NCBI RefSeq assembly: GCF_000382325.1
Contig: NZ_KB908057.1
Span: 1 to 64,000, forward strand
Length of the DNA stretch: 64,000 bases
Source: Woodsholea maritima DSM 17123
GTDB taxonomy: Bacteria > Pseudomonadota > Alphaproteobacteria > Caulobacterales > Maricaulaceae
Direction of reading: 5' to 3'
The position numbers were made by a program, and so were the translations under genes. Shown one piece after another: positions 29,153-33,608 of the stretch (positions within the stretch are counted from its first letter, which is position 1; every line of letters begins with the position of its first letter). The notes under the pieces are model-generated. The model was given only the letters and a program-made list of their open reading frames with translations. It was not told where the DNA came from and searched no databases.

Positions 29153-29845
29153 TTAATGGCCTGTGCTGGCCATTTCTTGTAGAATGGATTCAGCGGCTTG
29201 GCGTGGATTTTCGGCCTGATTGATCGGGCGTCCGATCACCAGATGGGATGAGCCCGCTTCCAGCGCATCTTTGGGTGTAACCACGCGTTTTTGATCGCCC
29301 GCATCAGCGCCCAAGGGACGGATGCCCGGCGTGACGATCATGAAGTCGTGGCCAAAGCGTTGGCGGATTTCTGCCGCTTCCTGGGCGCTGGCCACAACAC
29401 CGTCCATGCCACACTCTAAGGCTTGCTCGACCCGGCGCAGCACCAGATCGCGCGCGCCCATGCCATAGCCGATTTCGGCCAGGATCGCATCGTCATAGGC
29501 CGTCAGCACCGTAACGCCCAGCAGTTTGAGGGTGGAGCCGGCCCGGCCTTCAACGGCGGCGCGCATGACGGGCGGTTCGGCATGCACGGTCAACAGGTCT
29601 GCATCCACACTGGCGAGCGAGCGCGTGGCCTTCTCAACCGTGGCGGGAATATCGTGAAGCTTATAATCGAGGAATACTTTTTTATCGCGCGACTTTAAGG
29701 CGTGGGCGAGGGCCATGCCGCCGACGGGCAGCAATTGCAGGCCGATTTTATAATGCTCACACACATCCCCGATGGCATCGACCAAGTCTTCCGCTTCGGA
29801 AATTGATGGCACATCTAATGCCGTGATTAAGCGCTCATCCGCCAT
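29153..29845 (-). CDS. pyrF: Orotidine 5'-phosphate decarboxylase
   Basis: 230 aa. The catalytic D-X-K-X-X-D motif is FLDYKLHDIPATV near residue 60, with ITALDVPS at the N-terminus and the phosphate-binding TPGIRP near 180 and IGRPI near 205. It makes UMP, the last step of de novo pyrimidine synthesis. It stands alone in this genome stretch. Confidence 0.96.
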   Translation of the reverse strand: MADERLITALDVPSISEAEDLVDAIGDVCEHYKIGLQLLPVGGMALAHALKSRDKKVFLDYKLHDIPATVEKATRSLASVDADLLTVHAEPPVMRAAVEGRAGSTLKLLGVTVLTAYDDAILAEIGYGMGARDLVLRRVEQALECGMDGVVASAQEAAEIRQRFGHDFMIVTPGIRPLGADAGDQKRVVTPKDALEAGSSHLVIGRPINQAENPRQAAESILQEMASTGH

Positions 29846-29932: not shown

Positions 29933-30760
29933 TTAGCCCTGCGTGTGACCTTTGGCCGATCCCTCGCTAGAGCGCACCGAAGCGCTTCCTTTCTTCATAA
30001 GGGCCATTCCCACGCTGTCAGGCAAGATCTTATTCAGCGCGACCAGGAATTTATACCAAGTCCCGGGCACGGTTATGTATTTATTGCGCTCCACCGCGTC
30101 ATATCCGGCTTTGACCACCTCTTCTGCCGTGAGCCACCAATAGGCGGGCAGTTGAGAAACAATGTCGCGGGTTTCATTGACATCGTGGAATTCCGAATAG
30201 GTAAAGCCCGGACATAGAGCCGTAACATGGACGCCCGTGCCTTCCATTTCCAAATGCAAAGACTGCGAGAATTTGATCAGCAACGATTTGGCCCCGCCAT
30301 ATAGCGTATGGCCCTTTGCGCCGGGCATTAAACCGGCCACCGAGGCGACATTGATCACGCGGCCAAAACCGCGCTCCACCATGCCGGGCAAGGTCAGGTG
30401 AGTAAGGTGAGCATAACTTGTCACCATCAGTTGTAAGAAAGCGGCGTGATCGTCCCACTCAGAATTGAGATAAGCCCCTGGCAGGCCATAGCCCGCATTA
30501 TTCACCAGGCCATCGACCTGTCGCCCGGATTCCAAGACGGCGCTATAAATGCCTTCGGGCGCATCGGGATCGGCGAGATTAGCCGGGATGACCAGGCTGT
30601 CGACGCCAAACTGGGCCTTCATCTCTTCGGCCAGCGCCTCCAAGCGCTCTTCACGGCGCGCGCTCAGGGCTAGATCCCAGCCCTTGGCGGCAAAATGGCG
30701 GGCAAAGGCCGCACCAATTCCAGATGAGGCACCGGTAATCAGAACAAGTGGCCGGGTCAT
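29933..30760 (-). CDS. Short-chain dehydrogenase/reductase
   Basis: 275 aa. The classical SDR marks are present: cofactor loop TGASSGIG near residue 10, NNAGYG near 88, catalytic Ser in INVASVAG near 138 and the YGGAK catalytic Tyr/Lys near 153-157. A basic residue pair after strand two (SARREERL) suggests NADP(H). The C-terminal ~60 residues (EEVVKAGYDAVERNKYITVPGTWYKFLVAL) match the DltE/YqjQ-like oxidoreductases. The substrate is not predictable. Confidence 0.85.
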   Translation of the reverse strand: MTRPLVLITGASSGIGAAFARHFAAKGWDLALSARREERLEALAEEMKAQFGVDSLVIPANLADPDAPEGIYSAVLESGRQVDGLVNNAGYGLPGAYLNSEWDDHAAFLQLMVTSYAHLTHLTLPGMVERGFGRVINVASVAGLMPGAKGHTLYGGAKSLLIKFSQSLHLEMEGTGVHVTALCPGFTYSEFHDVNETRDIVSQLPAYWWLTAEEVVKAGYDAVERNKYITVPGTWYKFLVALNKILPDSVGMALMKKGSASVRSSEGSAKGHTQG

Positions 30761-30838: not shown

Positions 30839-32134
30839 CTAACTCAAGGGCGTTTGCACCACGGGCGCATAGACATGCCAGGGGAAGGTTTCCACCAAAC
30901 GCTTTGAAAAGGCGATCCCGCGCGAGGGATTGCCGTGATGATCCAAGCGTGGACTATAAAGCGCGATCCCGCACACCCCGGGCACGACGATATAAAGCGC
31001 GCCAGAAACCCCCGACTTGGCAGGAAGGCCGACGCTGAAGGCATATTCGCCGGAAAAATCATACATGCCACAGCTGAGCATCAGCGAGAGCACATGGCGC
31101 ACCGTGCGCCCTTGGAATACGCGGCGCTCCGTCAACGGACAAACTCCGCCATTGGCCAGGCTCGCCGCCCATAGGCTCAGCGCGCCGACATCGCTTTTCA
31201 GCGCGCAACAGCGAAAATAAAGCTCCAACGTGTCATGAAGGTCGGCCTCGGGCGGGAAGGCCTTATGTTCGCGCATGAAATAAGCCAGCGCGAAATTACG
31301 GTCTGCCGTGGCCTTCTCGCTTTCATATGTGGCGTGATCCAGCTCAGGTTCTTGGCCAGCACAGGCCGAGCCCCAGACCCGGCGAATATAGTCAAAACGC
31401 GCATCCACATTCTGGGTCGGCCGGATCAGGGCGCAGGTCATGATCGCCCCGGCATTGATCATGGGATTATGCGGGCGATGGCGGCGGTCCAGTGTGATCT
31501 CGTTAAAGCCTTGGCCTGAAGGCTCACGCCCGACATAGCGATGGACCAGATCCTCGCCCAACAGCTCCAAGGCCAAGGCATAATTCAAGGGCTTACAGGT
31601 CGATTGAATGCAGAATTGCGCCGCCTCATCACCTTCGCGCAAACCCATGGAGAAGTTCTGGCCATCAATAGTGCACACCGACAGGGCGAAGGCTTCAGGA
31701 TCAGCGCGGCGAAGTTCAGGAATGTAATGGGCAATCTCACCTTGGTGATCATCGGCGGCGAAGGCGAAAACATTTGATAGGCGCTGTTTGAAACTGCCAA
31801 AATGTCCGCTGACTAACTGGTTGGTCAGGGCGCGGCTGATCAAGTGGCGCTCATCCAGGGCCAAGGCTTTTTTGAAATCGGCAAAGCTCAATGCGCGGGT
31901 TTGATCCTCCCCCCAGGCCGACAGACAGGCCCCCAGGCGCGGATCGGTTTCGCTCAAGCCCTGGGCGCGCAAGGCCTGGGCCAGGCGAAGGCGCGTAACC
32001 GGGCCTTGGCTTTCAAGGCTTTGATAGGCCCCGTGCAGGCTTTTTTCATCCAGCGCACAAACCTCGCCCTCAAATTGGGCGGGGCGGGTGGAAAAATGGG
32101 TGCCATCAGAGGGTGGAAAATTCGACGCGGGCAT
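30839..32134 (-). CDS. glsA: Glutaminase with an animal-type N-terminal extension
   Basis: 431 aa, against about 310 for ordinary bacterial GlsA. The catalytic domain (from ~130) has the Ser-X-X-Lys dyad in CIQSTCKPLNYAL (Ser178, Lys181), HRYVGREPSG, PHNPMINAGAI and SCGMYDFSG...GLPAKSGVSG. In all of these it is closer to animal kidney-type glutaminase as I remember it than to E. coli YbaS/YneH. The extra ~115 N-terminal residues also follow the EF-hand-like helical domain of the animal enzyme: DPRLGACL, then FADFKKAL and SFKQRL before the catalytic domain. It hydrolyses glutamine to glutamate and ammonia. It is monocistronic. Confidence 0.92.
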   Translation of the reverse strand: MPASNFPPSDGTHFSTRPAQFEGEVCALDEKSLHGAYQSLESQGPVTRLRLAQALRAQGLSETDPRLGACLSAWGEDQTRALSFADFKKALALDERHLISRALTNQLVSGHFGSFKQRLSNVFAFAADDHQGEIAHYIPELRRADPEAFALSVCTIDGQNFSMGLREGDEAAQFCIQSTCKPLNYALALELLGEDLVHRYVGREPSGQGFNEITLDRRHRPHNPMINAGAIMTCALIRPTQNVDARFDYIRRVWGSACAGQEPELDHATYESEKATADRNFALAYFMREHKAFPPEADLHDTLELYFRCCALKSDVGALSLWAASLANGGVCPLTERRVFQGRTVRHVLSLMLSCGMYDFSGEYAFSVGLPAKSGVSGALYIVVPGVCGIALYSPRLDHHGNPSRGIAFSKRLVETFPWHVYAPVVQTPLS

Positions 32135-32381
32135 GAAAAACGGCCTTAGGTCTTGGGGATGCTGGAGAAATTATTCCCCAAAAGGGTTTCTCTATCCATA
32201 GCGCGCCTTTATGCAGTGTGTACAGTTATGCATGCTTTTGTATAAGGGGGGGACGTCTTATTGTTGTGCCTTGCAACAAAATTTACCGGGGCCTGCAGAC
32301 AGCCCTTTAACAGACCGCCTTGGCCGCTGCCTTTCGTGGGCCAAAAATCATAAGTGCGGATCAGACAAAGGATTTTATGCG

Positions 32382-33608
32382 ATGGCAAAGCCCATTAAAA
32401 AAATCGTTCTGGCCTATTCCGGGGGCCTTGATACCTCTGTCATCTTGAAATGGTTGCAAGATGCCTATGACGCGGAAGTCGTGACCTTCACGGCGGATCT
32501 AGGTCAGGGCGAGGAATTGGCCCCTGCGCGCGCCAAAGCCGAAGCCGCCGGTGTCAAAGACATTTATATCGATGATCTGCGCGAAGAATTCGTGCGCGAT
32601 TATGTCTTCCCCATGGTGCGCGCCAATGCAGTTTATGAGGGCCTTTATCTGTTGGGGACATCCATTGCGCGCCCGCTGATTTCCAAGCGTCTGGTTGAGA
32701 TTGCGCATGAAACCGGTGCGGATGCCGTGGCCCACGGGGCAACCGGTAAGGGCAATGACCAGGTCCGTTTCGAGCTGGCCGTCGCCGCGCTGGATCCCAA
32801 TCTGAAAGTTATCGCGCCGTGGCGTGAATGGGATCTGACCAGCCGGACCAAGCTGATTGAATACGCTGAAACCCATGGCATTCAAGTGCCTAAGGATAAG
32901 CGCGGCGAAGCCCCGTTCAGCGTGGATGCCAATCTGTGGCACACCTCGTCTGAAGGCAAAATGCTCGAAGACCCCTCTGAAGAGGCGTTTAACGAGGTTT
33001 GCCTGCGCACCACTCACCCCGAAGATGCCCCAGATCAGCCTGAATATGTCACCATCGGCTTTGAAAAAGGCGATGCGGTCAGCGTCAATGGCGCGGCGTT
33101 GAGCCCGGCAAGCCTCTTGACCCAGCTTAATGAGCTGGGCTCCAAGCATGGGATTGGCCGTCTGGATCTGGTGGAAAACCGCTTTGTTGGGATGAAATCG
33201 CGCGGCATTTATGAGACCCCGGGCGGGGCGATCTTGATGGCCGCCCACCGCGGGATTGAACAATTGACGCTCGATCGCGGCGCGATGCATCTCAAAGAAG
33301 AGCTGATGCCGAAATATGCCAAGCTGGTCTATGAAGGTTTCTGGTTCAGCCCTGAGCGTGAAATGCTGCAGGCCGCCATTGATCACTCGCAGAAATACGT
33401 CACCGGTGATGTCCGCTTGAAGCTTTACAAGGGCAATGTTGCCGTTGTGGGCCGTACATCAGCTTATTCGCTCTATTCGCTGGAGCACGTCACCTTTGAA
33501 GATGATGATGTTTATGACCAAAAAGACGCTGAAGGCTTTATTCGCCTGAATGCGCTGCGTTTACAACTAATGGCGCATAGAAAACGCCGTATAGGCGAAA
33601 ACGACTAA
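32382..33608 (+). CDS. argG: Argininosuccinate synthase
   Basis: 408 aa from the ATG at 32382; the upstream in-frame extension is not part of the family. The PP-loop is [17 protein letters not shown] at residues ~8-24, followed by [15 protein letters not shown] near 115 and APWREWD near 146, all typical of the enzyme. It joins citrulline and aspartate with ATP. The ~250 bp upstream, divergent from glsA, hold no recognisable operator. Confidence 0.97.

Follow-up and report, generated by a model that had tools for sequence, protein, structure and literature searches.

A KGA-type glutaminase in Woodsholea maritima that shares the core of human KGA and GAC and differs at the phosphate and filament sites

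The DNA analysed here (the window) comprises 64,000 nucleotides of Woodsholea maritima DSM 17123, contig NZ_KB908057.1. On its minus strand, positions 30839..32134 hold an open reading frame of 431 aa that codes for a KGA-type glutaminase; a reading of 30839-32134 on the plus strand was ruled out, as that frame is closed by stops. This is the sole glutaminase gene that we found in the genome (3.1 Mb, 100% complete). Its divergent neighbour is argG (argininosuccinate synthase, 32211..33608, plus strand), whose true start, judging by the sequence, is likely to lie near 32382. Immediately downstream there is a short-chain dehydrogenase gene (29933..30760, minus strand), and beyond it pyrF (orotidine 5'-phosphate decarboxylase, 29153..29845, minus strand). 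The synteny with argG is conserved in the Maricaulaceae and pyrF is kept in most of their loci, that is, in most cases the glutaminase gene lies between argG and pyrF, with the dehydrogenase in between in part of the family. This conserved context suggests that the gene is a stable resident, and it speaks against a recent transfer. On the other side of argG, the plus-strand region 33661-35022 matches the Major royal jelly protein family with 25.2 bits, above the cut-off, and a gene of this family is kept beside argG in one relative (L016) as well.

The catalytic domain of the protein spans residues 132-422 (30869..31741, minus strand; PF04960, 342 bits). The general model for glutaminase A (TIGR03814) accepts the protein with 277.1 bits at a cut-off of 255.4 and thus does not separate the long from the short types. 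Residues 28-115 (31790..32053, minus strand) make up an EF-hand-like four-helix domain that is homologous to residues ~135-221 of human GLS. The Pfam model EF-hand_14 (PF17959, cut-off 23.7 bits) matches residues 41-108 (31811-32014); the score is 22.4 bits in the whole protein, just below the cut-off, and 26.8 bits, above it, when residues 1-115 are scanned alone. So as to be independent of a possible bias of the Pfam model towards animals, we built our own profile; its source was the N-terminal extension of 54 further bacterial proteins, leaving out both the window protein and the human sequences. This independent profile matches the window protein (46.6 bits), human KGA (38.1 bits) and human GLS2 (35.4 bits); among 119 other glutaminase frames that lack an extension it has no match. 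In a phmmer search against the PDB, human and mouse KGA, GAC and GLS2 align from residue 40-41 onwards (the human enzyme up to residue 422) with ~315 bits, whereas E. coli YbaS (160 bits) and B. subtilis YbgJ (149 bits) align only from residue 130.

Structure prediction leads to the same assignment. The AlphaFold2 model of the whole protein (pLDDT 91.7) superposes with residues 30-430 on residues 136-544 of human and mouse GAC (383-396 residues, 1.8-1.9 A, Z ~52), and the structural match with the short bacterial enzymes begins only at residue 110. When the extension was folded alone (pLDDT 82) and compared using VIA-align, all 22 of the listed glutaminase entries ranked first (Z 9.0-10.5) and other EF-hand proteins came after them with Z of 6.2 or less. 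Foldseek also placed glutaminases at the top of its list for the short extension model, with no match under an E value of 0.001. An earlier note on this DNA had proposed, from a few motifs, that the extension corresponds to the N-terminal domain of animal KGA. All of the quoted motifs are present in the reading frame, and Pfam on the extension alone, the independent profile and the predicted fold agree with the proposal.

The canonical EF loop pattern (D-x-[DNS]-x-[DNS]-G...E/D) is absent from the extension of the window protein, in which the EF loops are degenerate, and calcium regulation was therefore rejected; the domain would rather be a structural and oligomerisation module than a calcium sensor. 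The loop pattern does occur in two relatives, and only in one of them (L084, protein from 2965; DLNGDGFIIKSD in the N-terminal extension) does it look canonical.

Relatives were sought among ~85,000 species representatives, and 564 were found. Since PF17959 is too strict as a census tool (2/398 Pseudomonadota matched, with most bacterial relatives missed), a home-made profile was used for the census. The fractions given below refer to the 80 proteins nearest to the window protein (best 80 of 564) and are not a census. These best 80 of 564 include Pseudomonadota, Bacteroidota, Actinomycetota, Melainabacteria/Cyanobacteria and Myxococcota, and also Planctomycetota, Acidobacteriota, Bdellovibrionota and Margulisiibacteriota. 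Bacterial multidomain glutaminases are thus widespread, occurring in at least eight phyla. Such enzymes were reportedly described by Pasquali et al. in 2017 (J Biol Chem 292:11572), and the window protein belongs to this already known group. Most glutaminases of the sampled Alphaproteobacteria and Bacteroidota are short, and in some Bacteroidota (G679, G672) a short glutaminase occurs alongside a long one of the KGA type within the same genome. In a myxococcal genome (G1084, contig C73; L185-L187) we saw a frame of 696 aa with a KGA-type extension, where the match to the glutaminase domain is split into three separate parts; this could reflect either insertions or a divergent paralogue.

In a tree built on the catalytic domain only, a branch of 1.4-1.5 changes per site (support 100) stands between the short enzymes on one side and the extension-bearing bacterial and human enzymes on the other. 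The window protein is found inside the Maricaulaceae (100/99), and these branch from within a clade (99/99) made up of Parvularculaceae and sphingomonads, which carry ankyrin repeats. That the catalytic part is nearer to KGA than to the E. coli type, as the earlier note had it, is therefore borne out by the tree and by the phmmer scores, and the phylogeny that it had called for places the enzyme outside the short bacterial glutaminases. In a small number of long-clade members, namely Maricaulis sequences, L078 and L216, no extension was detected. The extensions of the four Maricaulis sequences labelled as short have diverged but are of normal length, so they are not truly absent. L216 (G1198) and L078 combine a KGA-clade catalytic domain and an intact filament motif (FFNYLEQ and FFNYLDQ) with no detectable N-terminal extension, possibly a secondary loss.

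The "complete kidney-type architecture" that had been suggested for the protein does not hold at its C-terminus: no ankyrin match was found in the window protein, which ends 9 residues past the catalytic domain, so that the C-terminal repeats of KGA are missing. Its architecture is limited to what KGA and GAC have in common and is not that of the full KGA. A relative from the same order (L008) does have the N-terminal domain, the catalytic domain and ankyrin repeats; among the window protein and its nearest relatives (best 80 of 564), EF-hand_14 matches 58/80 and ankyrin models match 57/80 (~70%). With most relatives carrying the repeats, one could think of a truncated or misassembled gene. 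This is very improbable, because all 18 Maricaulaceae long forms end in the same way, 6-11 residues beyond the catalytic domain, and the next gene downstream, which has the same orientation, starts after only 78 bases. On the tree, three separate changes account for the loss of the repeats: one on the stem of the Maricaulaceae, one in a group of Melainabacteria and one in L075. In one other sequence (L180, contig G1162:C775) the absence of the ankyrin part is probably artefactual, as the frame ends in CLLYTSDAAD, which resembles sequencing-adapter read-through.

The protein resembles KGA closely, in its N-terminal domain too, which might also suggest that a eukaryote was the source of the gene. 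There is hardly any room for this explanation: the protein is nested in a bacterial family of at least eight phyla, inside which the human enzymes form one branch, the argG-pyrF synteny is stable in the Maricaulaceae, and the identity to the nearest relatives, which are Maricaulaceae (Marinicauda, Oceanicaulis), is 60-62% compared with about 39-40% to human glutaminase. In the opposite direction, an alphaproteobacterial relative of the window protein could have given rise to the mitochondrial enzyme through the endosymbiont, which we consider rather unlikely. Eukaryotes were represented by the two human paralogues. With these two sequences only, the AU test gives p-AU 0.43 for joining human with the main alphaproteobacterial clade and 0.098 for joining human with the Maricaulaceae, so that neither grouping is rejected; this is in favour of an endosymbiont origin, as is the early gain of ankyrin repeats for which a 2026 review cites a phylogeny from 2017 (PMC13142944). 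In the free tree, however, the human branch lies inside the bacterial long clade but not within the alphaproteobacterial one (99/99); it sits in a poorly resolved part that contains many phyla. Furthermore, sequences from Rickettsiales MAGs fall at two different places of the tree, and the family moves widely among phyla, so that finding it in Alphaproteobacteria says little in favour of vertical descent.

The catalytic residues were located by alignment to human GLS; the human residue numbering and roles were taken from PMC10770349, PMC10912226 and PMC13218152. The catalytic Ser178 and Lys181 (human S286 and K289) lie in the motif QSTCKPLNYA (31592..31603, minus strand), and the catalytic Tyr358 (human Y466) is encoded at 31061-31063 (minus strand). 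The equivalents of S286, K289, Y466, Y249, Y414, N335, E381 and N388 are all identical in the window protein, and the catalytic residues are common to it, to its long relatives and to the short types.

The phosphate site has changed. In the activation loop QGFNEIT (31493..31513, minus strand; human LRFNKLF, 316-322), F318 is kept, R317 is replaced by Gly and K320 by Glu. Taken together, the human site R317/K320/R387/Y394/K398 reads G/E/R/F/H in the window protein, with 1/5 residues kept. In the bacterial long forms (all counts for the best 80 of 564), position 320 is Glu in 71/80 and Lys in 0/80, position 394 is Phe in 62/80, and R387 and E397 are each kept in 79/80. In the short types position 397 is Ser, Ala or Asn, and the position of K320 is Ser in 27/27 of the short forms tabulated. 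The earlier note had raised the possibility of phosphate activation in bacteria. With four of the five ligands replaced (R317 by Gly, K320 by Glu, Y394 by Phe, K398 by His), activation of the human type is unlikely for the window enzyme, as far as can be judged from its residues. In human GAC, exchanging K320 for Ala gives phosphate-independent activity (PMC10912226, PMC8130709, PMC13218152). Since this change frees the human enzymes from phosphate, phosphate independence is the best prediction for the window enzyme, with the proviso that the effect of Ala may not carry over to Glu. The pair R387-E397 is part of the human dimer-dimer activation switch (PMC10770349, PMC10912226, PMC13218152), and as it is kept in the window protein, some response to anions via another site would be possible. 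As a conjecture, Glu320 could contact Arg387 directly in place of the anion.

Next to phosphate, the note had brought up filament formation. The region equivalent to the human filament interface (interface residues from PMC10912226 and PMC10770349) was found by alignment at 31211..31396 on the minus strand, with F247 (human F355), L265 (F373), H267 (N375), Y270 (F378), E271 (Q379), E304 (D412) and R308 (Q416), that is, with 1/7 residues identical. Across 55 bacterial proteins with ankyrin repeats, F355, N375 and Q416 are identical to human in 100% and F373 in 98%, position 378 is Tyr or Phe, 379 is mostly Leu and 412 is Glu or Asp. Against a background of 187 catalytic positions that are not shared with the short types, the seven sites are more conserved than random sets of seven sites (0.91, p 0.003), also in their identity to human (0.65, p 0.03), bearing in mind that the test ignores relatedness and that filament contacts are not distinguishable from other packing. 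In the Maricaulaceae the seven sites are no better conserved than the background (p 0.75): N375 is replaced by Glu, Gln, His, Arg or Ala, and position 416 is always Arg (18/18 and the window protein). The loss of the ankyrin repeats does not entail the loss of the interface as a rule, since the interface reads FFNYLEQ in Melainabacteria without the repeats, and Ser375 occurs in a lineage that has them (L115).

The 2026 review states that bacterial glutaminases have no conserved filamentation interface and no need for phosphate, with B. subtilis as the example in a figure (PMC13142944). At the level of sequence the long bacterial family does not fit the first part of this statement. Filament formation is plausible for the family and less so for the window protein, where the loss of N375 and Q416 does not prove that filaments are lost. 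Potentially, the window enzyme could still form substrate-induced filaments via a swapped interface, in which Arg416 of one tetramer faces an acidic residue (position 375 or 379) of the neighbouring tetramer and so replaces the human network of Gln416 with Asn375/Gln379. The invariant Arg416, the kept aromatic Y/F378 and D/E412, and the acid at 375 or 379 in 18/19 Maricaulaceae sequences are in line with this. Exactly one of the two positions is acidic in 17/19 (Fisher p 0.001, or 0.009 without close copies), a p value that overstates the significance since the sequences are related. All the same we find the idea unlikely: 375 and 379 are separated by a single turn of the helix and may be engaged in ordinary salt bridging within the helix, F355 and F373 drift in the sister Maricaulis group as well, and the human Q416A enzyme forms no filaments (PMC10770349).

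The picture that we favour, and to which we give a probability of roughly 80%, is that of a KGA-type Ser-Lys-Tyr glutaminase with a helical N-terminal module, in which the ankyrin part and the filament surface have changed and which works as a phosphate-independent tetramer. The gene product would be an intracellular, serine-dependent enzyme that converts glutamine to glutamate and ammonia, as expected from its family and from the complete set of catalytic residues. According to the tree and the alignment, the ancestor of the Maricaulaceae lost the C-terminal ankyrin repeats and remodelled the human-type filament surface; as the human phosphate site is absent and Glu has replaced the gating Lys320, the tetramer would be active without phosphate. 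For the bacterial family as a whole we tentatively propose, at somewhat less than even odds, that KGA-type enzymes form substrate-driven filaments via the human-type interface with no need for phosphate, that filamentation is thus older than the animal and perhaps the mitochondrial enzyme, that phosphate control came later, and that the Maricaulaceae, the lineage in which the repeats were lost too, rebuilt or lost the interface. The combination of filament residues kept throughout the family with an absent phosphate site, together with the Maricaulaceae exception, appears to be new with respect to the literature examined. Interface residues that are nearly invariant where the phosphate site is absent would separate two properties that are coupled in human GAC. 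Bacterial filaments are then a testable prediction, given that most bacterial relatives keep the human filament surface, and the Maricaulaceae are natural controls for whether this interface is used. The family also supplies relatives for comparison as regards the origin of the mitochondrial enzyme.

Among the known systems, human GAC resembles the window protein in having the EF-hand-like and the catalytic domain without ankyrin repeats, in its fold (396 residues at 1.9 A in the predicted structure), in its catalytic residues, in the R387-E397 pair and in F318. It differs in that the window protein lacks R317, K320, Y394 and K398, has replacements of N375, Q416, F373 and Q379, and has no mitochondrial presequence, which is not expected in a bacterium. 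The absence of the repeats arose independently, by splicing in GAC and by lineage loss in the window protein. Human KGA and GLS2 share both domains and, unlike the window protein, have the C-terminal repeats. The short glutaminases (E. coli YbaS, B. subtilis YbgJ, Micrococcus Mglu) have the same catalytic fold and residues, but they have no N-terminal domain, belong to a distant clade and carry Ser at the position of K320. The ankyrin-bearing bacterial glutaminases (for example at the Saonia, Micromonospora, Nannocystis and Parvularcula loci) share the clade, both domains and Glu at the position of K320 with the window protein; most of them keep the repeats together with F355, F373, N375 and Q416, whereas the window protein keeps F355 alone of these four residues.
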